In this document: positions 6,098 to 54,039 of the stretch, in pieces
Numbering within the stretch: position 1 is the first letter of the stretch
Layout: each line of letters starts with the position of its first letter
NCBI GenBank assembly: GCA_947503785.1
Contig: CANNFB010000001.1
Span: 62,001 to 126,000, forward strand
DNA length: 64,000 bases
Source of the DNA: an uncultured Campylobacterales bacterium
Lineage (GTDB): Bacteria; Campylobacterota; Campylobacteria; Campylobacterales; Arcobacteraceae
Direction: 5' to 3'
Notes under the pieces: model-generated
Told to the model about the DNA's origin: nothing
Databases searched by the model: none
The model's input: the letters and a program-made list of their open reading frames with translations, nothing else
Translations under genes and position numbers: made by a program

Positions 6098-6835
6098 TTA
6101 AATTAACTTGTATTCAATTGGTAACTGGATTGTAATATCTTTTTTAACTTTAGGAAAAGAAGATGCTGCATCTTTTACTGCGTCAATAGTGGATTTTTTT
6201 AATCTACTATGACCATTTAAAATCACTATATTATCAACTAATCCATTGCTACGCAAGGTAAATTTTATATTTACAATTCCTTGAATTTTTAGTCTTTTTG
6301 CACTTTTTGGATAACGAATGTTTTGTTTGATTTGCTTTCTAATCATTCGTAAATGCTTTGATAAATAATCTTTTTTAATATCTGTTTTTACTACTTTTTT
6401 TGGCTTTTTAGTATTCGTTGTTTTTTCTTTAACAATTTTTTTAATTACTTCTTGTTTTATAGGTTCTTTTTGTACTTGTTTTTCTATCTTTTTTACTTTT
6501 GTTTCTTTCTTTTTTATAGACTTTCTTTTCATTACTTTTTTTGGCTTTTCTATTATCTTCTTTTTTACTATTTTTTTCTTCAATATTTTCTTAGGTTTTA
6601 TCTTTTTAGGTTCTTGTTTTTTAACAATTTCTTTAATAAGCTCTTTTGGCTTTTCTACTTTTTTTTCAATCTTTGGTAGAGGTATTAATTCAATATGTTG
6701 TAAAGAGATTGTTTGTTGTAAAGTTTTTTCTTTTTTTAAAAGAATTTTTTCATCTGCCAAAACTACAAATAATGCGAAAATTACAAAAGAATACAAAACA
6801 AGTGTAATTAAAAAAGAGTTTAAATATCGTTTCAT
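6098..6835 (-). CDS. tonB: TonB energy-transducing protein
   Basis: A 245-residue protein with one N-terminal membrane helix (about residues 8-28). A very long Lys/Pro/Glu-rich periplasmic spacer follows (about 50-155), then a C-terminal TonB domain (about 165-245) with the IRYPKSAKRLKIQGIVNIKFTL signature region. It transmits the proton-motive-force energy harvested by ExbBD to outer-membrane receptors such as the BtuB-like protein at 481-2295. It overlaps exbD by 4 bases, forming an exbB-exbD-tonB operon. The spacer is richer in lysine than the usual proline-rich linker, which makes the opposite strand look like a Phe/Tyr-rich ORF; that is an artefact. Confidence 0.9.
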   Translation of the reverse strand: MKRYLNSFLITLVLYSFVIFALFVVLADEKILLKKEKTLQQTISLQHIELIPLPKIEKKVEKPKELIKEIVKKQEPKKIKPKKILKKKIVKKKIIEKPKKVMKRKSIKKKETKVKKIEKQVQKEPIKQEVIKKIVKEKTTNTKKPKKVVKTDIKKDYLSKHLRMIRKQIKQNIRYPKSAKRLKIQGIVNIKFTLRSNGLVDNIVILNGHSRLKKSTIDAVKDAASSFPKVKKDITIQLPIEYKLI

Positions 6836-7209
6836 TTTTCAGTTACAATAGAAACATTTAAATAGTCATGTTTTTTTAGCATATCTAGAATAGAAACAAA
6901 AGCTTCAAACTTTGAATCCTTATCACTATTTATATGGATAGGAGTATCTTTTGGCAAGCTTAGTATATGCTCTTGGATATTTTCAAGACCTGATATATCT
7001 TTATTTACATGTAAAGTATTATCTTTTTTTATTGTTATAACTATTTCTTTTTTTACCTTTATATCATTTGCATTATTAGCATTTGGTAGGGATACAGGAA
7101 TAATACCTTTTGATATAAAAGTTGAAGTTAATAAAACAATCGTAAGTAAAACTAATAATACATCAATAAAGGGTATTACATTTATTGAATCAAACTTCTT
7201 CAGTTTCAT
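6832..7209 (-). CDS. exbD: ExbD, TonB-system proton channel subunit
   Basis: A 126-residue inner-membrane protein with one helix (about residues 12-32) that carries the essential Asp of the ExbD/TolR family (INVIPFIDVLLVLL). A periplasmic domain follows. The ATG at 7209 has GAGAG upstream. A GTG two codons earlier at 7215 is possible but has no better ribosome site. It overlaps exbB by about 20 bases and tonB by 4, consistent with coupled translation of the complex. Confidence 0.9.
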   Translation of the reverse strand: MKLKKFDSINVIPFIDVLLVLLTIVLLTSTFISKGIIPVSLPNANNANDIKVKKEIVITIKKDNTLHVNKDISGLENIQEHILSLPKDTPIHINSDKDSKFEAFVSILDMLKKHDYLNVSIVTEK

Positions 7210-7615
7210 AATCACTCTCTAAAACTTCTGCATATCTTCCTAATATATTATAAAAAATTTGAGAGATAATAGCCACAACTAGTCCTGCAGCTGTTGCTTT
7301 TAAAGCAAGGGCTAATGAACTCATAATCTTAGCAGCTTCAATGTCACCATTTCCCATAGTAAAAAATGTAAGCATAATAGCTAATACAGTACCTAATAAA
7401 CCAATATAAGGTGAATTAGATGCAATTGTACCTATGATAGTCAAATGCTTTGTAAGAGCTATATCTAGGGACTTTTTATTTTTATAAGACGTTACATCAA
7501 CTTTTTTATAAAAAAACAATCTTTCAATAAAAAACCAAACTGAAAGAAAACTCATAAAAATCAATAATGCAATAACACCATAATCAACTAAATTCTTTAA
7601 AACTTCTATATCCAC
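7190..7615 (-). CDS. exbB: ExbB, TonB-system proton channel subunit (short form)
   Basis: A 141-residue protein with three membrane helices (about residues 10-30, 60-85 and 100-125). It belongs to the short MotA/TolQ/ExbB type common in Campylobacterota. The conserved GTIASNSPYIGLLGTVLAIM region follows the cytoplasmic loop. It forms the pentameric scaffold around ExbD. It lies 18 bases after the nfeD-like gene and may share a transcript with the SPFH/NfeD pair. Confidence 0.88.
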   Translation of the reverse strand: MDIEVLKNLVDYGVIALLIFMSFLSVWFFIERLFFYKKVDVTSYKNKKSLDIALTKHLTIIGTIASNSPYIGLLGTVLAIMLTFFTMGNGDIEAAKIMSSLALALKATAAGLVVAIISQIFYNILGRYAEVLESDYETEEV

Positions 7616-41131: not shown

Positions 41132-41932
41132 ATGGCATTACAAAAATGGGAAATATTCCAAGATGAAGCAACAGATTTTTTAAATAATTATTTTAATGCT
41201 AATTTTTCAATGGACGGCGGTTTAGACGCAACAACATCTTATATAACAGTAAGAAAAGGTATTCAGCTTCGTACAACTATTGAAGCAAAATTTGCTTCAA
41301 CTCAAGCAGGACAAATTGTACTCGAATCAGAGAATAAAAAATTTAGCTTTTGCGATAAAAGTAAAAATGAATCAAATAAATATACAGATGAGATAATAAA
41401 ATATTTAAATAAAAACTATTCATCATTTGCAGGAACAAATACTGCGAATATTCATGTAAATATTTCTAATAATATACTTTTTAACTGGGTAAAAACAATT
41501 TATGAAGATAAAAATGTTGAGTGGATTATATCTTCACAAAAGTTCAACAAGTTAACTTTAAAAGATTTACTTTTTATTCCAATAAACGAAATAGAAAACT
41601 ACTTTGATATTAGCCTAGTATTTAGAAGAAAGAAAACCGGAAATACACATATACCAGGTAAAGACATAATAGATTTCAAAGAGCAGTTAGATGAAACAAC
41701 AAAAAACTACAAAATCAAAAAAACTGATAACAAGTACTTGTTAACTACTAGTTCAAGATTATCTGATTTTAATATTGGTAGTAAATATTTAGTAAGTATG
41801 ACAAATGTGGATTGTGAGTATTATGTAAAGAAAAAAGACATAAACACTAACCCTAATATTATGTTTCAACTAAACTTAAAAGATAATATAGAATTTAAAG
41901 GTGAGCTTTTCAAAAAGATTTTTGATTTATAA
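41132..41932 (+). CDS. Protein of unknown function with a possible PD-(D/E)XK nuclease signature
   Basis: A 266-residue soluble protein. In the N-terminal 65 residues, MDGGLDATTSYITV (candidate metal-binding Asp near 33) is followed about 20 residues later by TIEAKFASTQAGQIVLES: an E-x-K with a trailing Gln, the pattern of PD-(D/E)XK restriction/repair nucleases. The rest is alpha/beta with FDISLVFRRKKTGNTHIPGKDI and no family I recognise. It has AAGG before its ATG. It is at the left end of the accessory region that holds the toxin-antitoxin and Septu-like genes. Assignment as a nuclease is a motif-level inference only. Confidence 0.5.
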   Translation: MALQKWEIFQDEATDFLNNYFNANFSMDGGLDATTSYITVRKGIQLRTTIEAKFASTQAGQIVLESENKKFSFCDKSKNESNKYTDEIIKYLNKNYSSFAGTNTANIHVNISNNILFNWVKTIYEDKNVEWIISSQKFNKLTLKDLLFIPINEIENYFDISLVFRRKKTGNTHIPGKDIIDFKEQLDETTKNYKIKKTDNKYLLTTSSRLSDFNIGSKYLVSMTNVDCEYYVKKKDINTNPNIMFQLNLKDNIEFKGELFKKIFDL

Positions 41933-42756: not shown

Positions 42757-43095
42757 TTATATCTCCTTTAATTTTGAAAAACTGTTTTCATGTGCTTCAT
42801 AAGACTCAAGTAAAAAAGGCAAAATCTTTTTTCCTTTAGTACTTATTTCATATACTCTTTTAGGGTGACCCTTTCCATCTGGAATATTCCATGTAGAATT
42901 TAACCATCCATTTTGCTCCATACGGTTTAGCAAAGGATAAAGAGTACCTTCCTTGATTACCAAATCAAACTCTTTCAAAAAATTTATCAATGCTAGACCA
43001 TGCATTGAACCTTTTTTTGACAAACTTAAAAGTGTATAAAGTTCGATATAACCTTTTCTAAACTGCGTTAACCATTTTTTATATTCATCATCCAA
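42757..43095 (-). CDS. PadR-family transcriptional regulator
   Basis: A 112-residue winged-helix protein: KKGSMHGLALINFLKEFDLVIKEGTLYPLLNRMEQNGWLNSTW ... GKGHPKRVYEISTKGKKIL, the short PadR-s2 type. AGGAG precedes the ATG. Upstream, a perfect 27-bp palindrome overlaps the promoter, indicating autoregulation. Its partner is the HAAS-domain membrane protein downstream. Confidence 0.88.
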   Translation of the reverse strand: MDDEYKKWLTQFRKGYIELYTLLSLSKKGSMHGLALINFLKEFDLVIKEGTLYPLLNRMEQNGWLNSTWNIPDGKGHPKRVYEISTKGKKILPFLLESYEAHENSFSKLKEI

Positions 43096-43121
43096 AATTT
43101 ACTCCTGTGAAAGTATATCAT

Positions 43122-43148
43122 ATTTTACTTTGTATTACAAAGTAAAAT
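43122..43148. promoter_or_regulatory. 27-bp perfect palindromic operator of the PadR operon
   Basis: Half-site ATTTTACTTTGTA, one central base, and its exact reverse complement. A minus-strand TATACT (43112-43117) follows 4 bases later, so the palindrome covers the spacer/-35 region and would block RNA polymerase when bound. It is 27 bases upstream of the padR ATG. Confidence 0.75.
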
Positions 43149-43317
43149 GTATTACAGATAGATATATTATATATAAGTATGCATATTAATTTGTTGACTT
43201 AGTTATTGTGGAGCAGTTATTGGTATTGATATTTTAGGGCTTTGAACTGTTTTTAAGTAGTGTCACAAATAGAAAAGATATATTGAATATTGAGATATAA
43301 AGTAGAATTAAATAGAT

Positions 43318-43351
43318 AAAAAAAGGGACAGTTAAAAAACTGTCCCTTTTT
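43318..43351 (-). terminator. rpsU terminator (bidirectional form)
   Basis: A perfect 13-bp stem (AAAAGGGACAGTT / AACTGTCCCTTTT) with an AAAA loop, 19 bases after the rpsU stop. T-runs occur on both sides (seven on the minus side). Confidence 0.85.
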
Positions 43352-43369
43352 ATAGATTGAATTAAGATA

Positions 43370-43582
43370 TTATAATCTAGATTCGTATTTTCTAAGCATG
43401 TGAAGTTTTTTAAGCATTTTCTTCTTTGCATTAATTTTTTGTTTTTTCTTAATCTCTGTGTTTGGTTCAAAAAATCGTCTAGCTCTAGTTTCTGTAACAA
43501 TAAGATTTCTATCACATTGTTTTTTAAACTTTCTGTATGCTTCGTCGAAAGACTCATTTTCTTTTACTTTAATACCTGGCAT
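43370..43582 (-). CDS. rpsU: 30S ribosomal protein bS21
   Basis: A 70-residue basic protein: [20 protein letters not shown] and [23 protein letters not shown] are bS21 signatures. It is part of the 30S head/platform near the anti-Shine-Dalgarno end of 16S rRNA. It is monocistronic with a strong terminator. A core gene in the middle of otherwise accessory DNA. Confidence 0.95.
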
Positions 43583-43677
43583 TATAAATGTACCTACTTT
43601 TTTTAGATTTTAGGTATGCACTATATGCAAATTTTGCTTAATTTTAACTTTGTAAGTGTATATCTTATAAAGTAAAG

Positions 43678-43775
43678 CAGTAAACAATAAATGTAATAAC
43701 TACCTAAGCTAACATATAGCGTGCTTACTTGTAGTAATTGTTTAAATAGTTAAAGGGGCTTATTCCCTTTTTTTA
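43678..43775 (+). ncRNA. Candidate structured small RNA, about 98 nt
   Basis: A plus-strand TATAAA at about 43666-43671 would start an RNA near 43678. It folds as nested stems: TAAACAAT/ATTGTTTA (43681-43688 with 43737-43744), ACTAC/GTAGT (43699-43703 with 43731-43735), TAAGC/GCTTA (43705-43709 with 43723-43727). A terminator follows: AAAGGG/CCCTTT (43752-43770) and a T-run. It is antisense to nothing annotated; rpsU lies divergently to the left. No ORF of note is inside. Confidence 0.5.
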
Positions 43776-43784
43776 TAATTTAAA

Positions 43785-43910
43785 CTAAGCAACAATACCT
43801 TTAGCTTTTACAATATTTCCAATGGCTTGAAACAATTCATCCATATCACCATCTTCAAGAGATTCATTCTCATTAGCCTTCTATTCGTTAACTTTATTAG
43901 AGGCATTCAT
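43785..43910 (-). pseudogene. Broken small ORF of unknown origin
   Basis: Reading from ATG 43910 gives MNASNKVNE, an in-frame TAG, then KANENESLEDGDMDELFQAIGNIVKAKGIVA and a stop. The frame either side of the single stop is continuous and biased like coding sequence, so a 42-residue protein seems to have been inactivated by one base change. Alternatively a shorter product starts at an internal codon. Family unknown. It lies between the predicted small RNA and higA. Confidence 0.4.
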
Positions 43911-43989
43911 CTTTTCAAATCAAAGTAACTTTTTAGATATCAGTTACTTGTTTATTTTGTTTTAATACAGGGGAGTTAACCAAAAAACT

Positions 43990-44265
43990 CTACACTATTT
44001 GTATCTTTAACTCTTTTCCTAATATATTTGCAAAGTTTTGTAAAGTAGATAGTCTTATATCTTGAGCATGATTTTCTATTCTTGATATTGCAGATTTTTT
44101 TGTATGAAGTTTAAAAGCTACCTCTTCTTGTGTCATACCAGTATCAATTCTTGCTTGTTTTAACATTTCACCTATTTTAAACTCTTCATAACCTTTGTCA
44201 AAATTTTCGGCAAACTCTTTGTCTAATTTTTTTCTTTTTTCTATGTACTTTTGTAAATCACTCAT
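43990..44265 (-). CDS. higA: HigA-type antitoxin (XRE helix-turn-helix)
   Basis: A 91-residue protein with a C-terminal HTH_3 domain: [51 protein letters not shown]. It overlaps the toxin gene by 8 bases and follows it, the toxin-first order typical of higBA. It neutralises HigB and represses the operon through the palindrome at 44611-44628. Confidence 0.88.
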
Positions 44266-44602
44266 TTTCTAAATACTCCCTTTTTCTTCTTTGTGCTAAA
44301 TCAATTTCACTTGTAGAAGTCTTTTGATCTTTTTTTCTAAAAGCATTAGTCAAAATGACTAAACACCCTTTATCTTCAAAACCAAGAAACCTAAAGTTGT
44401 TACTTCCATATTGAACTCTTACTTCAATAATATCATCAGTATTTACAAGTTTTTTATAAAACTTAGTAGATACATTGTGTGATTCTTCAATAAGCTGTAA
44501 AACCCAAGTAATCTTCAATATTTCTTTCTTAGATAATGAATCTATGAAATCCTCAACCGGACATTTACCTGATTTTGTTTTATAGAAAATTATCTCTTTC
44601 AT
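44258..44602 (-). CDS. higB: HigB/RelE-superfamily toxin (Gp49-like)
   Basis: A 114-residue protein starting [23 protein letters not shown], with [38 protein letters not shown] and [29 protein letters not shown]: the Gp49/HigB fold with the Lys/Arg-rich C-terminal active surface. It is predicted to cleave mRNA on the ribosome. No truncation is seen, so the pair should be active. Confidence 0.88.
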
Positions 44603-44610
44603 TGTTTTAT

Positions 44611-44628
44611 GTTAACATATATGTTAAC
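44611..44628. promoter_or_regulatory. 18-bp perfect palindromic operator of higBA
   Basis: GTTAACATATATGTTAAC, a perfect palindrome starting 8 bases upstream of the higB ATG. It is the natural binding site for the HigA dimer and would overlap the -10/start region. Confidence 0.75.
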
Positions 44629-44740
44629 TTTTGTCAATTTATTCATAATAAAACCTTTTTATAAGATTTATGATTATATAAAGTTTTTTTAGGTTTGTTT
44701 TGTTTTATTGCAGATTGTAATATTATTGATTATTTATAAG

Positions 44741-45013
44741 ATGAAGCATCAATTTGGACAAAATAATTGTATATCCTGTCCCCACAATTTTTTAAAGCAT
44801 GGAACAATAGTATTAATTAAAAGATTTTTATTATTTTGGGCCTTAGGCACAATTCCTTATCTTAGTATTATTGCTTATACAGGTTCTATTAGCCAAACAG
44901 ATAATCCAATGCCTGCAATTTATGCGGCAGTGTTTGTGACAGCTACCTTTAGCTTAGCATGGCTATATTTTATGAAAAAGAATAAAAATAAAGTAATAAA
45001 AGAAATCAACTAA
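44741..45013 (+). CDS. Small two-helix membrane protein, start within a repeat
   Basis: About 90 residues from ATG 44741, with two helices (about residues 28-48 and 60-80) and a basic tail KKNKNKVIKEIN. The first ~18 codons (MKHQFGQNNCISCPHNFLK) are the translation of repeat copy B, so the original N-terminus was probably replaced or the gene truncated by the repeat. There is no good ribosome site. It could be a remnant. Confidence 0.35.
   Translation: MKHQFGQNNCISCPHNFLKHGTIVLIKRFLLFWALGTIPYLSIIAYTGSISQTDNPMPAIYAAVFVTATFSLAWLYFMKKNKNKVIKEIN
44743..44795 (+). repeat. Dispersed imperfect-palindromic repeat, copy B
   Basis: Matches copy A at 41942-41993 in about 40 of 52 bases; the TGGACA...TGTCC(C) arms and the GTATAT centre are conserved. 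It lies downstream of the divergent higBA operon and inside the start of the small membrane protein ORF. Confidence 0.5.
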
Positions 45014-45053
45014 AGTATTAATATATTCATATTCAGGGGTGTAACTTTTAAAA

Positions 45054-45335
45054 CTAATCTCTATGCATAATTTCTATTAAGTGATATCCAAATTTAGTCT
45101 TAATTGGACCATGAAGTATATTTAATTCTTCTGTAAATACAATATTATCGAACTCTTTAACCATTTCACCTTCGCAAAAAGTGCCTAGGTTTCCATTTTC
45201 TTTTTTAGAAGAACAGCGAGAATATTTCCTTGCGGCTTTCTCAAATGTAAATGTACCAGAAAGAATTTCTTCTTTAACTTTGTTTGCTATTTTAATATGT
45301 TTAACTAAAATATGTCGAGCAGTAGCTTTTGCCAT
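45054..45335 (-). CDS. Parvulin-type peptidyl-prolyl cis-trans isomerase
   Basis: A 93-residue single-domain parvulin: TARHILVKHIKIANKVKEEILSG, FEKAARKYSRCSSKKENGNLGTFCEGEMVKEFDNIVF and GPIKTKFGYHLIEIMHRD. This is the cytoplasmic PpiC type with no signal peptide. It catalyses prolyl isomerisation in folding proteins. It is monocistronic. Confidence 0.92.
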   Translation of the reverse strand: MAKATARHILVKHIKIANKVKEEILSGTFTFEKAARKYSRCSSKKENGNLGTFCEGEMVKEFDNIVFTEELNILHGPIKTKFGYHLIEIMHRD

Positions 45336-45435
45336 TTGATTCCTTACTATCTTTAACTGTCACTTGTTTATTAGGTGAACATTATAGTCAAAATAATTAT
45401 AATAAAAAGAAATAACAATCGATTACCCCAAATAG

Positions 45436-45517
45436 GTCATGTAAATATGTATGTTAAAATTAGAAGTACTGTATCCTCGGAACTCTTAAAAGTCGCAATT
45501 TATGACCTGACCCCTTT
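45436..45517. repeat. Possible repeat with RAYT/REP-like end sequence
   Basis: AGGTCAT near 45436 and ATGACCTGACCCC at about 45502-45514 form an interrupted inverted repeat. The string AATTTATGACCTGACCCC resembles the ends of REP elements seen beside Y1-type transposases in other bacteria. It lies just downstream of the HNH gene's stop. Boundaries are approximate, and no second copy is in the window. Confidence 0.3.
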
Positions 45518-45561
45518 ATTCTTTACATAAGGATTATCATATATCAAAATCTAATATAACT

Positions 45562-46539
45562 TTATACCACTATGTTTTTATACAAATCTTTTTTTAGTTT
45601 ATATAATAATTCTCTTTTTTTATTCATAAATTCATATTCATAAAAAACTATTTTCTTAACATCAAAACTAGATAACCCAACAGTATGTTTTGCAATATCA
45701 TTAATTTTTGATTTTCTATACTTTCTATTTTTATCAATTATATTTTTTAAAACTTCTGTATGCCCTGCATATAACTCTTGTATTAAAAAAGTATCTAAGT
45801 GCATTTTATATTCTGGTTTAGATACTAAATATTTATAATTTTTTATATAAATTTTATTTAAATAAATATCATAATCAAACTCTATTTCATCAAATATCTT
45901 TTGTGGAGGATATATCGAGGCTTTGTAAAAATCTTCATCATTTTTTGCTCTTTGATTACAAAATAAGCAAGAAGGAACTAAGTTTGATAATGTAACTGAG
46001 AGAAAAGGGTACCTCGATTTTGGGTAAAAGTGGTCTAAATCAGGTGTAATCATTTTTGAACCTTTTTTAGCTTCTATTACGTTTATATAACTTCGGTAAC
46101 AATACGGGCAAATATTAATATTTGTTTCTTCAATAACTCTTTTTCCATGAATACTTCTAAAGTTTTTGTACATATTGGAATATTTTTTTATTATGAATTT
46201 TTTTATTGTTTTGACTTTTTCATCATTACAGTTTTTACTAATATCACATACTGTTTTTTCATTAGTATTTATAAAAATATCTCTACTTTTTTCTCCAAAT
46301 TTAGCAATTAATGATTTGAAAAAAAATTCAATAGTATCACTATTTTTTTCATAACTTGAAAGAAATGTATTATTCGATAAAAATCCTTTTTCTTCAAATG
46401 ATAAATTTTCTAGAAACTCCTTAGTTTCTTGATGAATAGTTAAATAATCATTCTCTTTCAATATTTTATTAGTATCATAAATTTTCTTATTAAAATATTT
46501 TAATAATTCAACCTGATATTCTTTTTTTATATTAACCAT
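45562..46539 (-). CDS. HNH endonuclease of a Septu-like defence pair (PtuB-like)
   Basis: About 325 residues from ATG 46539 (GTG 46548 is an alternative). A zinc-HNH nuclease core lies near residues 144-200: NICPYCYRSY, then PDLDHFYPKSRYPFLSVTLSNLVPSCLFCNQ, i.e. two CxxC zinc knuckles bracketing the catalytic DH and the Asn. A helical N-terminal region precedes it. This matches the HNH proteins partnered with AAA ATPases in Septu and in some retron-linked modules. It overlaps the ATPase gene by 8 bases. It probably degrades DNA or tRNA after phage sensing; no reverse transcriptase gene is present. Confidence 0.75.
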   Translation of the reverse strand: MVNIKKEYQVELLKYFNKKIYDTNKILKENDYLTIHQETKEFLENLSFEEKGFLSNNTFLSSYEKNSDTIEFFFKSLIAKFGEKSRDIFINTNEKTVCDISKNCNDEKVKTIKKFIIKKYSNMYKNFRSIHGKRVIEETNINICPYCYRSYINVIEAKKGSKMITPDLDHFYPKSRYPFLSVTLSNLVPSCLFCNQRAKNDEDFYKASIYPPQKIFDEIEFDYDIYLNKIYIKNYKYLVSKPEYKMHLDTFLIQELYAGHTEVLKNIIDKNRKYRKSKINDIAKHTVGLSSFDVKKIVFYEYEFMNKKRELLYKLKKDLYKNIVV

Positions 46540-48562
46540 TACGTTCACTTACATAATTAAACATTTTTTGAAGATGTTCTTGTATAACCTCTTCTCCAAT
46601 ATTGTTAATTATTAGATTTACTTCTTTGTAAAAATCTTCTAATGATTTATAAATAACTTCTAAATATTTATTATCATTGATTTTTTTAAATTTTTCATTT
46701 TCAATAAATTCATAAATAAATTCTTTTATATCTTTCAATAAAACTTCATTCTCTTCTTCTTTATTATCTGTTTCATACATTAAGTCAAAAAAATCTCTTA
46801 ACATAAAATAGTTTTCTTCATTATCTGCTTTTTTTATTGCATATAAAACATATAATATTTCGGATAATTCTTTTATAACTTCTTCGCTAAATGAACCAAT
46901 AGTATTACTAACATAAAAATCATCCTTGAAAATGTCAAATATATTACCCCCAAATGTTTTTGAACTCACACTTTCTTGTCCAAGATATATAATATTTTCA
47001 TCATAAATATCACTTACAACAAAGGGTGAATGAGTCGCTATTACAAATTGAAATTTTTTTGTATTATCTTCATATGTAAAAAACTCATTAAGTTGTTTTA
47101 TAAAATTTCTTTGCCATTCTGGATGAAGATGTAACTCAACTTCATCAATTAAAATTAAATACGTTTTATTTTTAACATTATCATAACTACTATCTTCGGC
47201 CTGAATTTCATCTAATTCTTTTATTCTTCCTAAAATATTTGCGAAATATGATAATAATGTTTTTTCACCAGAACTTAATCTAAAATAGTTAAGACTATTC
47301 CCATTTTTTATTAAATTCATCTCAAATTTAATATTTTTTTTTCTTGTTAATAATTTAATTATTCTTAATGTTTCTAAGAATTCTCCTGATTTTACTATTT
47401 CCTTTAAATATTCATCATTATTAAAATTATTAATATTTAACAATAACTCTTTATTTATAAATATATCTTTTAATAAATAATAAGTCTTAGGTAATACTAA
47501 TTGTTTAACTTCTTTTGGAGTTTTAATATCTTTAATAAAATTATATATACTATCTATAATATTAATAGATAATTCACCTGTTAAATCTTTTTCTTTTTTT
47601 ATTACCTTATCTAATAAAAAAATAAACTTTGATTTACTATCTAATTTAAGATTTTTCAATATTAATTCTTTAAAGAAGAAATCATCTATCTTTTCAGATT
47701 TAAGTTCAAAAGATAATTTATCTTCTAATTCAAGATATAATTCTTCTGTAAAAAAAGACTCTATTAAGGAAGGGTATTCTTTTTTAAGTTCTTTAAAACT
47801 TGGAAGTTTAATATTAAAATAGTACTGTTCATTTTCAACATTAATATTTATACTTCCATATTCATATCCTAAATTGTTAAACATAACCTTTGATTTTTTA
47901 TTTAATAAAACTGAAATTAAATTCATTAAAGTCATATATTCATATGTAGTTTCATCATTTTCAATTTGTTTTGTACCAATATATTTTAATCTTTTTTGAT
48001 AATGTATTTTTTTAGCTGAAGAAGCACCTGATAATTGAGTTTTTAATAAATCATATATCCTATCAAAAGGAGAAAGACTATGAAAGATTATATTAAATTG
48101 ATAAGGTAACACAGAATATGCATATTCTGTGTTAGAAATTAATAAATCTTTATCATTTTGATTCCAAGTATTTTTATAAATATCTATACTTTCCCTATCA
48201 AGAAAAAGATTCCAGTTTTTTGAATTATGATAATAGGTTTGTATTAAAAATTCATTTTTCTCTTCATCATAAAAAAGTAAATGAATTTTATTAACTAATT
48301 CTTCTCCATCAAGATTCCATAGTAGTGGGGCAATAATAAGTTCAAAAAATGTTGTTTTACCTATTCCATTCTTACCAACAATGCAAGAAATATTGCTCAA
48401 ATTATTATTGAAGGGATGATGATAATTACCATTTGTTTCTAATTCAATTTTTTTATTACCTCTGGGAATAAATTTTTTAACAATAAATTCTCTATCAAAA
48501 TAATATCCACCCGCTTTTATATGTTTATAATCTTCTTCAATATGAATATATAGTAACTTCAC
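46532..48562 (-). CDS. AAA/ABC-type ATPase of a Septu-like defence pair (PtuA-like)
   Basis: A 676-residue SMC/ABC-like ATPase. Walker A is IVGKNGIGKTTFFE (about residues 62-75), the signature motif RLSSGEKTLLSYFANI is near 430, Walker B is LILIDEVELHLHPEWQ near 471, and the switch His region is ATHSPFVVSDIYDENII near 510. A long helical insert lies between Walker A and the signature, and there is a 120-residue helical tail after the ATPase. No TOPRIM domain is seen, so it is not an OLD nuclease. The start is GTG with AAAGGAG 5 bases upstream. The HNH gene follows with an overlapping start. Upstream is a decayed fragment of sbcC. Confidence 0.75.
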   Translation of the reverse strand: MKLLYIHIEEDYKHIKAGGYYFDREFIVKKFIPRGNKKIELETNGNYHHPFNNNLSNISCIVGKNGIGKTTFFELIIAPLLWNLDGEELVNKIHLLFYDEEKNEFLIQTYYHNSKNWNLFLDRESIDIYKNTWNQNDKDLLISNTEYAYSVLPYQFNIIFHSLSPFDRIYDLLKTQLSGASSAKKIHYQKRLKYIGTKQIENDETTYEYMTLMNLISVLLNKKSKVMFNNLGYEYGSININVENEQYYFNIKLPSFKELKKEYPSLIESFFTEELYLELEDKLSFELKSEKIDDFFFKELILKNLKLDSKSKFIFLLDKVIKKEKDLTGELSINIIDSIYNFIKDIKTPKEVKQLVLPKTYYLLKDIFINKELLLNINNFNNDEYLKEIVKSGEFLETLRIIKLLTRKKNIKFEMNLIKNGNSLNYFRLSSGEKTLLSYFANILGRIKELDEIQAEDSSYDNVKNKTYLILIDEVELHLHPEWQRNFIKQLNEFFTYEDNTKKFQFVIATHSPFVVSDIYDENIIYLGQESVSSKTFGGNIFDIFKDDFYVSNTIGSFSEEVIKELSEILYVLYAIKKADNEENYFMLRDFFDLMYETDNKEEENEVLLKDIKEFIYEFIENEKFKKINDNKYLEVIYKSLEDFYKEVNLIINNIGEEVIQEHLQKMFNYVSERNG

Positions 48563-48592
48563 TTTACTCCTTTTTTAATATACTTAATCCTA

Positions 48593-48690
48593 ACTGTTCT
48601 TTTATAGTATGAAAAGCTTCTAGTATTTCTAAACGTCTGGCTTAATCTTGACTTCCAAAAATTTCATCAAAAGCTAAGAACCCTAGACTT
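48593..48690 (-). pseudogene. Decayed fragment of sbcC (Walker B region)
   Basis: About 98 bases closely match the intact sbcC at 51741-51840 (roughly nine in ten bases). Read on the minus strand it gives LAFDEIFGSQD, an in-frame TAA where sbcC has Glu, then RRLEILEAFHTIKEQ. It covers the Walker B/D-loop segment of SbcC (about residues 735-767 of 789) and nothing else. It lies directly between the three-gene higher-GC block and the Septu-like ATPase, marking a duplication or replacement boundary. Confidence 0.85.
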
Positions 48691-48703
48691 ATTTTAAATA
48701 AAA

Positions 48704-49033
48704 CTAATCAGCAAAATTCTTTTGAATATATTCTAATGCATCAATAATAGTTCCATCAAATTCAGATGATAATTTTTCACCTGCTCCATCATCAATAAAA
48801 GCTTCAAATTTACAGAACTCATTAAATCTGACATCTTCTTTAGCTATATTTATATTTTCTTGCTCAATAGTTGCATCAAATAAATAAACAATTTTTTTAT
48901 CAATTGTTTGTCTAGCTATTGAAAAAATTTCTACTTCAAATTCTGGATACAAGGCATAATCAGATAAGGTTTTTAACTTTATCTCCCAATCATAATCTTT
49001 ATAAATTTTAATACTAAACTTTCTTTCTTGCAT
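48704..49033 (-). CDS. Protein of unknown function
   Basis: A 109-residue soluble acidic protein (MQERKFSIKIYKDYDWEIKL ... DGTIIDALEYIQKNFAD), 12 bases after the CsgG-like gene. No motif is recognised. Its base composition is nearer to the AT-rich neighbours than to the two genes upstream of it. Confidence 0.5.
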   Translation of the reverse strand: MQERKFSIKIYKDYDWEIKLKTLSDYALYPEFEVEIFSIARQTIDKKIVYLFDATIEQENINIAKEDVRFNEFCKFEAFIDDGAGEKLSSEFDGTIIDALEYIQKNFAD

Positions 49034-49045
49034 TAACTTATTTCC

Positions 49046-50236
49046 TTATTCAATGTTCATTTTCTTTTGTAAGATTTTAATCTCATCTTTACTTGAATGT
49101 CTAATATTGATAGAAAAATCAATATCTGGGTCTTGCAGTCCGTCAAGTGGTGGTATGAGAAAACTTTCCATTGTCACCTTGCCTCCACACTGCACATCTT
49201 TGGGTGTACCTGGATAATCATACAAACTTTTCCATATATCCATCTCTTTGTTATTCTTACTTTCACTTCTGAAAAGTGTTGCCATATCATTAACTTTACC
49301 CAACATTTGTTTTGCTATTTCAGGTATTTTTTCCTTGTATTTTTTACTATTACGGTAGATACCATTTTCTCTCAAACTACCCCATGTAAAAGATAACTCT
49401 TTGTCTGATGATGGAAGATTTACATAGATCTTTGTATCATCCTCAAAACCCCAACCTTCATCTTCAGATTTCAATATGTCTTGTCCACCCATATTGTTTA
49501 TGAGTTTGTCTTCTTTTTCTATCTCATACTGACAACTGTCCATATTGAGCTCGTATTTTTCTCTGTGTATTTTACGTGTCGATTTTGCATCTACATGATA
49601 CTGCACGATATTTGCATTCTCTGCATCTATATAGACATAATAAGTATCTTTGTCTTCCTGATAACTTTCTAAATCTTTATTGATGCCACGATATTTTTCA
49701 ATAACTTTTACTTTTGTGCTAGTTTTTTGAGAAGTTGTAACTGTATAATAAGGTTCTCTACACATCTGCTTTGCTAGTGATCTCGATGCCTCTTCTATCA
49801 CTCTCCAATAATTCGTACCAACATGTAATCCTGAAGCCTTTGCCTGAGCTACCACATTACCCTGACGATCTTCAATCCTCAGATTTACTGTCACTCTACC
49901 CTGCTTTAAAACTGAGTTTCCTTTTACCAAATGGGTTGCTGCTATATGATTAGATATTAACCTGTTAGAAGGATCAATATAATCGCTAGAAGAGAGTTCA
50001 ATCTCCTCATTTATTGCTTCCATCACCCTAGGGTCTTCTGTTGCCGTTACTATATATGAACAACGTGACTGAAACAAAGTAGTAACAACAATATCCATTA
50101 GGGCTCTATCTGGATAGCGCATACCCACAATACTAAAGTCAGCAGGATTGTAACCAATTGCTACTAGTTGACTTGAGGAAGCCTCCAAAACATTTACACT
50201 GTATATAAGTAACAATCCTAATATTAATTTTTTCAT
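49046..50236 (-). CDS. Secreted protein with CsgG/LpoB-like N-terminal domain
   Basis: About 396 residues from ATG 50236 (MKKLILGLLLIYSVNVLEAS signal peptide; four extra residues upstream are unlikely). Residues 25-150 (DRALMDIVVTTLFQSRCSYIVTATEDP ... NHIAATHLVKGNSVLKQGRVTVNLRIEDRQGNVVAQAKASG) have the alpha/beta pattern of CsgG, LpoB and TolB-N-like domains that probe outer-membrane or periplasmic partners. The second half is acidic with no match I recognise. GC content is visibly higher than in neighbouring genes, suggesting transfer. It starts one base after the preceding gene's stop. Confidence 0.5.
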   Translation of the reverse strand: MKKLILGLLLIYSVNVLEASSSQLVAIGYNPADFSIVGMRYPDRALMDIVVTTLFQSRCSYIVTATEDPRVMEAINEEIELSSSDYIDPSNRLISNHIAATHLVKGNSVLKQGRVTVNLRIEDRQGNVVAQAKASGLHVGTNYWRVIEEASRSLAKQMCREPYYTVTTSQKTSTKVKVIEKYRGINKDLESYQEDKDTYYVYIDAENANIVQYHVDAKSTRKIHREKYELNMDSCQYEIEKEDKLINNMGGQDILKSEDEGWGFEDDTKIYVNLPSSDKELSFTWGSLRENGIYRNSKKYKEKIPEIAKQMLGKVNDMATLFRSESKNNKEMDIWKSLYDYPGTPKDVQCGGKVTMESFLIPPLDGLQDPDIDFSINIRHSSKDEIKILQKKMNIE

Positions 50237-50237
50237 C

Positions 50238-51479
50238 TTACTTCCCAAAGAGACCCCTTAACATTTTTTCAGCATCTTTTACTTCTTTTGTACTTCCTTC
50301 ATTTTGTGAAGAACCACCAAATAAACCTCCAAGAGATTTCAATGCATCATCTGCTGTAGCTTTTGATTTTTTAACAGGAACAAACTTACTTAAATCAAAT
50401 ACAGCTTTTGAAAACGCTACTAAATCCACTTTATCATTTCCAGTTGTTGTCATGGTTACCATGGCATTTTTAAGTCGAATGTCCATGGCATCATGTTTAG
50501 ACTTTTTTAGATATGCAGCCTGATAACGATTCCCTTGAATCTTCCCTTTCTTATAGTTCTGTATCTCCATATCATTGATTCTATATTTTGCAACAATTCC
50601 TTTTTCATCTTCCACATTAATAGAAAGATTGATATGAATGTAGGAATCACCTTTTTGATAAATAGCATTTTCAGTTTTCATCTTCATCATATTTAGGCAA
50701 GTAGCACTTGAAAGCTGTTTCCAACCATTGGCTTCAGATTTTAGCATTCCTAAGAGCTGTTGTGCTTCTCCATGAGATCCGACTACGGGACAAAGAGGTG
50801 GTTTTTTTACAGAAACTTCTGTTTTTTTATCTATGTCCATACCAGTAGGTAAAGTATACACAGAGTCAGAAATGTCCGCATCGTCAAACTTCACCAACTC
50901 CATACCCTCAAAAGCTATGGTTACATATCCTTTCTCAATATTCATAAGTGCAGAGAGTCCATCATCTTCTTCTACACTTCCTTCAGTAAATTGCCTCATA
51001 ACATTCATATACTTATGTACTGCATCTACCACTTTCTTATCGTCTGTAACAACTAAATCTAACTGTTCTTTTGTACCCTCTTCTTCATACTCAACTGTCC
51101 AAACCTGACCTTTGATGCCTGCAACAGTTTTATTTTCACCTTTTTTAACTATTTTAAAATCAGGTTCTTGAGATTTTTCTTCCAAAACTTCTTCTGACAT
51201 ACCACCATATTTAGCAGACATCTGTTTCATCTGTTCCAGCATGACATCCATATCCATATAATTGGTCTTCCCACCTTGCTTCATCACCATATAACGTTTA
51301 TCACCAAGCAGTAACTGAGATGATTGTTCACCTGCACCACCTGTTGTAATCATCACATGTTGTGCATCCTTATACTGTACAAGCTGATTTATGTTGTCAT
51401 CCATTTTATACTCTAATGTAAAGTCTGCCCATAACATCGAACTCAGTAACCCTGTCGCTAATATTATTTTTGCTTTCAT
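50238..51479 (-). CDS. Secreted protein of unknown function (DUF4412-like features)
   Basis: About 413 residues from ATG 51479, with AGGAG 5 bases upstream; an upstream extension to 51575 lacks a ribosome site. The signal peptide is MKAKIILATGLLSSMLWA. The mature protein is rich in short beta segments with LLLGDKRYMVMKQGGKTNYMDMD and VAGIKGQVWTVEYEEEGTKEQLDLVVTDDKKVVDA, reminiscent of DUF4412 outer-membrane-associated proteins. The C-terminus carries GGLFGGSSQNEGSTKEV. Base composition is clearly higher in GC than the surrounding genome. Confidence 0.5.
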   Translation of the reverse strand: MKAKIILATGLLSSMLWADFTLEYKMDDNINQLVQYKDAQHVMITTGGAGEQSSQLLLGDKRYMVMKQGGKTNYMDMDVMLEQMKQMSAKYGGMSEEVLEEKSQEPDFKIVKKGENKTVAGIKGQVWTVEYEEEGTKEQLDLVVTDDKKVVDAVHKYMNVMRQFTEGSVEEDDGLSALMNIEKGYVTIAFEGMELVKFDDADISDSVYTLPTGMDIDKKTEVSVKKPPLCPVVGSHGEAQQLLGMLKSEANGWKQLSSATCLNMMKMKTENAIYQKGDSYIHINLSINVEDEKGIVAKYRINDMEIQNYKKGKIQGNRYQAAYLKKSKHDAMDIRLKNAMVTMTTTGNDKVDLVAFSKAVFDLSKFVPVKKSKATADDALKSLGGLFGGSSQNEGSTKEVKDAEKMLRGLFGK

Positions 51480-51669
51480 TGTTTCTCCTGTAGGTATTAC
51501 TTCATATTTTAATTTATCCAGTACACTACCATTAAACAAGTCAAAGATTGTTCTATAATTTTGATATTTGTACAAGTAAAAGCATTGAAAAAATTGGATG
51601 ACTCTTTGTAATTAACATCGGTACCCTTCTCTTAAATTATATAATAAGTAATTTAAATAAGTTATTATT

Positions 51670-54039
51670 TTATAATTCAACAATACTCTCAAACATCTCT
51701 TTTACTTCAATCTCATGACTTATCAAAAATATTTGTCGATACTGTTCTTTAATAGTATGAAAAGCTTCTAGTATTTCTATACGTCTGCTTTCATCTTGAC
51801 TTCCAAAGACTTCATCAAAAGCTAAGAATCCTATAGTACTTGTACCACTTAACTCTGTTAGAGTTTTAGATATGGCAATACGTAGTACTAAGTTTGCTAG
51901 GTCTATTTCTCCACCTGAGAATCTCTCGATTGGGTATTTTTTACCTTCATCATAGATATAGAAATCAAAATCATTTGATACTTCTATATGCTGGTATTTG
52001 CCTTTTGTGATTATTGAATACATTGACGATGCGAAGCTTGATATTCTTGGAGCTATTTTTGCATTTAGTTTTGTTTTAAAATCCCCTAGGCTTAGTTTGA
52101 TTTTTTCATAGTCTAATAAATCATCTTTTTTGATTTGTACTTTTGATAGTTGTTTATTATTATCATCTAGGGATTGTTGGATAGTTTGGATTTGACCTTG
52201 GATTGTGGCTATTTGTACTTTTAGATTATTTAAAACTGTTTGTTTTTCTTCTTTCTCTTTTTTAACCTCAGCAAACTTTTTATCTTTTTCTTTATGTTTT
52301 ACCTCATCGTAGTCTATAGCTTTATATTCTAATTCTAAGTCATTATATTTAGTACTTAGGCTTTCTATTGTTTGATTTGTAATTTTAAGCTCATCTTTTA
52401 TCTTATCTAGACGTACTAGCATAGTTTCTAAACTTAGTACATATTCATACTTTGATTTTAACTCTTTTTGTTTTTCTATTTGGCTTTCATGAAATGAACT
52501 ATTATAAGTGTATTGTTCTAGTTTTGCTAATTCTGTTTTGTTTTTGATTCCATGTTTTTTAATCTTTTCAAAGTGTTCTTCTTCTTGTATAAAATCTCTT
52601 TTCTTACTCTCTATTAGATTAACTCTCTTAGATAGCTCAAAATGTTCATGGTTTATCTTCTTAAAAAGCTCTTCATGTTCTTCTCTTTGTTTTAATATAC
52701 TTTCTAGTTCTTTTTTTGCTTTTTGGATTTTGTCTTTTTTTGTTTGCTTTATAGTACTTTCTAGTGAGTCTAATACCTTATCATACTCATCTCTCAAAGG
52801 TCTAGTGCAAGTTGGACAATTTGAATCTCTTCCAAGTTCTTTTATAGTCTCTATTTGCTTCTTTGTATTTGCTATTAGCTTATCTTCACCTGCTATTTCT
52901 TGAACTAGTATTTTTTCTTCTTTTTGAATTGCATATATCTTTTGCTTTAGTTCTTCAATTTGTTTTTCTAGTTCTTCTTCTTTTTGTATTAACTCTTTAT
53001 GCTCTTTTGTCTCTTCTTTTAATAAATCAACTTTATGTTTTGATTTAAGATATTGTTCTCTTAAACTAGTTTGCTCTAAAGTTAATCCCTCTTTTCTTAT
53101 ATGATGTCCTTTTAAGCTCTCCTGCTCTTTTAGAACATCATGCAAGGAAATGTATTCTTCTTTTATACTTTGTAAGCCTTGTAGCTCTTCTTGCCTTTTT
53201 ACTAGTGTATTTACATCTTCATTTAATTTACTTTGGTTTCTTATATGCGAATTTATACTATTTTGTAAAAGCTCACACTGTGATGCATAGTTTTGTTTCT
53301 TCTCTTTAGTACTTTGGTGTATTTTTAACTCTTCTTGTATTTGTACTTCTTCTAGTTTTAAACTATTTACTTCTTTAGCTCTTTGTATAGACTCTTTTTC
53401 ATAATCTTCTTTATTTACAGTGTATTGCTCTATATGCTCTTTCTTTATATTTACCTCATCCAAACTTAGTAATACTTCTGCAAAAGCTGTGATTTCTCGC
53501 TTTAGGTCCCTACTTTGTTTTATAAGTAAGTCTTCTATAAAATCTATCTTTTCTAATCCTAATAACTTCCTAATCATTTTCTTTCTATCTTCAGGTTTTC
53601 TAGTACTTAGGTTTGTTAATTCTTTTTGTGAAGCAAAGAGCGTATGTAAGAAAGCATCCTTACTCATCTTTGTTAAAGATACTATAGAAGCTGTTACTTC
53701 TTTTGCACCCGTTGTTATAAGTTCATTTTCTTTATAAAACTTTGCATTTGCACTTAAAGCTTTTCCTCTAAACTCTCTACTTACTTTATACATAACACTT
53801 TCAAACTCAAACTCTAGCTCTACTAGTACTACATCTTTTATACTTGCGTTAGAATTTCGTATTACTTCTTTATAGCCTTTATTTTTAAGCTCTCCATATA
53901 GTGCAAAAAGTATTGCTTCAAAGATAGTTGATTTTCCACTACCGTTTTTTCCTACTATTCCAATAAGCCCTTCTTGAAACTCTAAATAGTAATTTTCATA
54001 TCTTTTAAAGTTCTCTAGTTTTAGATTAAGCAGAATCAT
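51670..54039 (-). CDS. sbcC: SbcC, DNA double-strand-break repair ATPase (Rad50-like)
   Basis: A 789-residue SMC-like protein: Walker A IVGKNGSGKSTIFEAILFALYG (residues 29-50), long coiled coils, and a zinc hook CPTC (in DSNCPTCTRPL, about residue 415). The signature is ERFSGGEIDLANLVLRIAISK and Walker B is FLAFDEVFGSQDESRR. It is short compared with Escherichia SbcC but typical of this phylum. With SbcD it cleaves hairpins and protein-blocked DNA ends. It overlaps sbcD by 14 bases. A decayed copy of its Walker B segment lies 3 kb downstream at 48593-48690. Confidence 0.92.
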   Translation of the reverse strand: MILLNLKLENFKRYENYYLEFQEGLIGIVGKNGSGKSTIFEAILFALYGELKNKGYKEVIRNSNASIKDVVLVELEFEFESVMYKVSREFRGKALSANAKFYKENELITTGAKEVTASIVSLTKMSKDAFLHTLFASQKELTNLSTRKPEDRKKMIRKLLGLEKIDFIEDLLIKQSRDLKREITAFAEVLLSLDEVNIKKEHIEQYTVNKEDYEKESIQRAKEVNSLKLEEVQIQEELKIHQSTKEKKQNYASQCELLQNSINSHIRNQSKLNEDVNTLVKRQEELQGLQSIKEEYISLHDVLKEQESLKGHHIRKEGLTLEQTSLREQYLKSKHKVDLLKEETKEHKELIQKEEELEKQIEELKQKIYAIQKEEKILVQEIAGEDKLIANTKKQIETIKELGRDSNCPTCTRPLRDEYDKVLDSLESTIKQTKKDKIQKAKKELESILKQREEHEELFKKINHEHFELSKRVNLIESKKRDFIQEEEHFEKIKKHGIKNKTELAKLEQYTYNSSFHESQIEKQKELKSKYEYVLSLETMLVRLDKIKDELKITNQTIESLSTKYNDLELEYKAIDYDEVKHKEKDKKFAEVKKEKEEKQTVLNNLKVQIATIQGQIQTIQQSLDDNNKQLSKVQIKKDDLLDYEKIKLSLGDFKTKLNAKIAPRISSFASSMYSIITKGKYQHIEVSNDFDFYIYDEGKKYPIERFSGGEIDLANLVLRIAISKTLTELSGTSTIGFLAFDEVFGSQDESRRIEILEAFHTIKEQYRQIFLISHEIEVKEMFESIVEL

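Follow-up and report, generated by a model that had tools for sequence, protein, structure and literature searches.

A divergent PDC-M62 ATPase-HNH gene pair in an uncultured Campylobacterales bacterium, a probable two-gene immune module on a sister branch of Septu

The closest experimentally described relatives of the locus reported here are Septu type I systems, which consist of the ATPase PtuA and the HNH nuclease PtuB, and the PtuAB effectors of type I-A retrons (Ec78/Eco7 and Ec83/Eco4). In the Septu system of E. coli, PtuA residues K43 and D316 and PtuB residues H75 and N91 are all required for immunity, and tRNA-Tyr is cleaved during infection (PMC13096335); relatives of PtuAB also act against phages (PMC13096335, PMC11555353). 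Similarly, Retron-Eco7 PtuAB depletes tRNA-Tyr. Two candidate systems catalogued in PADLOC, PDC-M62 (PDC-M62A and PDC-M62B) and PDC-M01, are likewise ATPase-HNH pairs, and the nuclease core of PDC-M01 is similar to that of the pair described below. DefenseFinder often labels PDC-M62 loci 'Septu' (203 coinciding calls in the Bacillus cereus group, PMC11811056), implying that this kind of locus is already known. The open-access literature that we searched yielded no phage assay or experimental study naming PDC-M62.

The 64,000-nucleotide stretch analysed here (the window) encodes, on its minus strand, an ABC/SMC-type ATPase (PDC-M62A/PtuA-like; 46532–48562, 676 residues from a GTG start) and an HNH nuclease (PDC-M62B/PtuB-like; 45562–46548, 328 residues from a GTG start). 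An alternative ATG start of the HNH gene at 46539 gives a protein of 325 residues; the overlap between the two genes is 17 nucleotides with the GTG start and 8 nucleotides with the ATG. The initial annotation, which did not give the strand, had reported an overlapping ATPase-HNH pair at these positions; its coordinates are confirmed, and every motif that it named (Walker A, signature and Walker B in the ATPase; CPYC, DLDHFYPK and the CLFCNQ core in the HNH protein) is present.

All features of the pair lie on the minus strand. The ATPase has a Walker A motif, GKNGIGKT (residues 63–70, 48353–48376), an ABC signature, LSSGE (residues 429–433, 47264–47278), a Walker B motif, LILIDE (residues 469–474, 47141–47158), and an H-loop, THSP (residues 510–513, 47024–47035), followed in the C-terminal region by an IGE motif (residues 655–657, 46592–46600). 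In an alignment of 17 homologues, G63, N65, G66, G68, K69, S430, G432, D473, E474, and H511 are invariant. In the HNH protein, a first presumed zinc-ligand pair (C147 and C150) is provided by CPYC (46099–46110), the presumed catalytic H173 lies in DLDHFYPK (from residue 170, 46018–46041), the HNH asparagine N189 (45982–45984) lies within NLVP, and a second presumed zinc-ligand pair (C194 and C197), together with N198, is located in CLFCNQ (from residue 194, 45952–45969); these seven residues are invariant in an alignment of 24 homologues. Both genes are under purifying selection (dN/dS about 0.16–0.29 against homologues of 50–67% identity, with dS near saturation), which argues that the pair of reading frames has not arisen by chance. 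Promoter and terminator scans gave results near the shuffled expectation.

Comparison with PADLOC models places both proteins in PDC-M62. The HNH protein matches PDC-M62B with E=2.4e-31 (residues 38–325 on positions 26–322 of 328), while its best PtuB model reaches 4.2e-8. The ATPase matches PDC-M62A with E=2.7e-27 (residues 1–568 on positions 1–534 of 601); several PtuA models equal or slightly outscore PDC-M62A on this protein (4.6e-30), with matches limited to the ATPase core. The window proteins therefore match PDC-M62 over most of their length, and gene order, motifs, and proportions are alike (the ATPase profiles of the family span about 600–685 positions). The PDC-M62B and PDC-M62A models also match all 24 HNH and all 17 ATPase homologues. 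However, the scores of the window pair (1e-31 and 1e-27) are far below those of core members (best 1e-87 and 1e-150), which positions it at the edge of the family, and its identity to most PDC-M62 members is ~20–29%. The search against defence-system models, proposed as a check in the initial annotation, thus returned PDC-M62 together with PtuA/PtuB, and no housekeeping family was matched.

The layout of the window pair resembles that of Septu type I, in which an ATPase with Walker, signature, and H-loop motifs is likewise encoded upstream of a zinc-HNH nuclease. The PtuA residues K43 and D316 (Walker A/B) correspond in role to K69 and D473 of the window ATPase, and the spacing between H173 and N189 (16 residues) is equal to that between H75 and N91 of PtuB. 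In contrast, the window HNH protein is roughly 100 residues longer, and the ATPase comprises 676 residues versus about 465 in PtuA (8ee4). Fold searches with the ATPase model (mean pLDDT 66) gave Septu PtuA as the best match (E. coli PtuA hexamer, 8sux, Z 13.8), alongside 8ee4 and retron PtuA (Z 13.4–13.8), with AriA and Rad50/SMC heads trailing (Z 11–13; AriA and Rad50 at 12–13); the margin is small, so the match is indicative of fold class more than of family. The HNH model matched no solved fold in a PDB fold search, a negative that is uninformative given the weakness of the model (mean pLDDT 64); its best-predicted stretch is part of an N-terminal helical region (about residues 60–120). 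By profile, the HNH core aligns with that of the type I-A retron nuclease 9n69_F (E=1.5e-5), with the H and N residues in register.

Trees of the ATPase and of the HNH protein (both from quick searches, with midpoint rooting) have three branches in common, PtuAB1, PDC-M01, and PDC-M62, with the window clade falling in PDC-M62 (SH-aLRT support for this branch 95 in the ATPase tree and 89 in the HNH tree). Constraining the HNH window clade to group with PtuB1 was rejected (AU p=0.00023), so that classical Septu (PtuB clade) membership is rejected for this protein, and grouping with PDC-M62 was compatible with the data (AU p=0.59). PDC-M01 forms a separate branch from the window pair in both trees, and its member in this genome is shorter (HNH 281 residues, ATPase 500 residues). 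Within PDC-M62, the window clade has three members (the window pair and the loci L064 and L065) on a long stem branch.

These placements bear on the proposal that the pair has a divergent architecture and may be a distinct subtype. An ATPase tail of about 120 extra residues had been noted; a stretch of ~60 residues before the IGE motif (about residues 580–645) is indeed specific to the window clade, except that one other member, L033, also has an insert there, whereas the C-terminal IGE is conserved family-wide. The long N-terminal extension of the HNH protein is real, but it is a trait of the whole PDC-M62 family, the PDC-M62B profiles of which span 328–401 positions. The pair lies outside classical PtuAB, as proposed, but within an already catalogued group, and the label of distinct subtype is largely a matter of naming: the window pair is best regarded as a diverged representative of a candidate defence family that is already on record, and not as a new system.

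The two genes are consistently found together. An ATPase reading frame lies directly upstream of the HNH gene in 40/40 homologous loci inspected from related genomes, the junction being nearly always overlapping or abutting, mostly with an overlap of a few nucleotides. When relatives, viral contigs, and PtuAB loci are taken together, 80 of 83 HNH reading frames are paired with an ATPase; of the other three, L082 is a stub of only 825 bases, L088 is cut by the end of its contig, and L097 is a weak match. Two homologous loci considered as orphan HNH genes (L043 and L063) were rejected as such on inspection, an ATPase being found in each. Homologues that lack the partner gene had been put forward as an observation that would speak against a two-gene module; the partner is consistently present, and this strict pairing, together with the profile and fold matches, backs the description of the pair as a Septu-like ATPase-HNH module. 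Departures from the usual arrangement were seen at two loci. At L052, the ATPase reading frame is split, and it is separated from the HNH gene by two small genes (6798–7461, minus strand) that by eye look like a toxin-antitoxin pair of the nucleotidyltransferase-HEPN kind. At L026 (4332–5824, plus strand), the ATPase reading frame is in two pieces (404 and 87 residues) beside an intact HNH gene, reflecting either a frameshift or a pseudogene.

The window pair has few close homologues. A pattern scan of an 84,980-species collection, a method that reaches close relatives only, found two loci, L064 and L065, the ATPases of which are 60% and 50% identical to that of the window pair. More broadly, one PDC-M62B model matches 49 of 298 sampled genomes of the phylum. 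Single-sequence queries of viral contigs with the window HNH protein recovered no close relatives, and distant relatives were recovered there by profile query.

The pair occupies a slot of variable content, the flanks of which are also present in the congener G003. They comprise, on one side, a Gp49-like (DUF891) and HTH gene pair of HigBA-type toxin-antitoxin-like character (43990–44602, minus strand) and, on the sbcC side, the region through a gene for a 109-residue protein (48704–49033); other genes lie between these flanks in G003. The GC content of the module is 21%, versus 27.5% for the window. Just upstream of the ATPase start, a 93-bp remnant of the 3' end of sbcC with one in-frame stop (48593–48685, minus strand) is 91% identical to the organism's own sbcC (51741–51833) and 95% identical to that of the congener; it is probably a scar left when the module was acquired. 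The variable slot, the AT-richness, and the sbcC remnant together indicate acquisition by recombination. Beside the slot in G003 is an SMC-like ATPase-type reading frame (L078:4773–5846, minus strand), possibly another defence gene. In the window itself, a plus-strand gene (41132–41932) encodes a 266-residue protein matching a PADLOC type II restriction enzyme model (5.8e-28); it is an orphan, with no evident DNA methylase gene adjoining. Elsewhere in the genome, contig C5 carries a second PDC-M62-type pair (L141:4395–7932), consisting of a 797-residue ATPase, about 320 residues of which form an additional N-terminal region, and a 383-residue HNH protein, about 4 kb from an integrase gene, and contig C17 carries a third ATPase-HNH pair, of PDC-M01 type (L142:5123–7471; E=3e-202 and 9e-96).

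We considered whether the pair might be the effector half of a type I-A-like retron with its reverse transcriptase and ncRNA encoded elsewhere. The solved structures nearest to the window ATPase in sequence are mainly PtuA of Septu and of retrons, and largely the latter, and NCBIfam models for retron PtuA (ATPase) and TIGR02646/PtuB (HNH) match the pair below their cut-offs. The initial annotation, however, had noted that no reverse transcriptase is nearby, and this extends to the whole genome, which gives no RVT_1 match under a search that does detect it in control genomes; nor does any Rfam family reach its gathering threshold in 43000–52000, although the relevant ncRNA may be absent from Rfam. 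The retron reading is accordingly rejected as highly improbable. Only slightly better placed, and still very unlikely, is a role as a housekeeping DNA repair ATPase-nuclease pair of the SbcCD/Rad50 kind. The ATPase fold is of SMC/Rad50 type, and the true sbcC (intact) and sbcD are just 3 kb from the pair; against this, HNH homologues are patchy, occurring in 53 of 150 related genomes with none closer than about 36% identity, the congener has different cargo between the same flanks, the profiles indicate defence families, and homologues are present on provirus and plasmid contigs.

The last of these observations would also fit a module directed mainly against plasmids or other mobile elements, or serving in addiction, and not against lytic phages, as would the two further related pairs in the genome, one of them near an integrase. 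Since the known PtuAB relatives target phages (PMC13096335, PMC11555353), we regard this as improbable. A further proposal, that the three-member clade, with its tail insert and helical HNH N-terminal domain, has a trigger or target different from that of PtuAB and deserves its own PDC-M62 subtype, is somewhat less improbable but still unlikely.

We favour the view, with a probability of roughly 0.8, that the window pair is a complete and probably functional two-gene PDC-M62 immune module on a sister branch of Septu (PtuAB). On the basis of the PtuAB mutant data and the equal H-N spacing (173–189 versus 75–91), we infer a PtuAB-like machine with an anti-phage role. With ATP, the SMC/ABC-type ATPase would form dimers, which might assemble further into larger oligomers, and this scaffold would keep the HNH protein bound and inactive. 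A cue arising from infection may then alter the nucleotide state or the assembly, whereupon the zinc-HNH nuclease (H173/N189) would cut phage or nicked DNA, or host tRNA; this nucleic-acid cleavage would block phage production, perhaps with cell death. The analysis itself shows the gene pair with its motifs, its family and strict pairing, the fold class of the ATPase, and the variable slot; a complex of the two proteins, its trigger and substrate, and an activity against phages are proposed. PDC-M62 is widespread in the phylum, and its status as a sister branch with the same catalytic layout as Septu makes a direct test straightforward, one that could reveal if cleavage of DNA and of tRNA, as described for various PtuAB systems, is shared by the remainder of the ATPase-HNH group.
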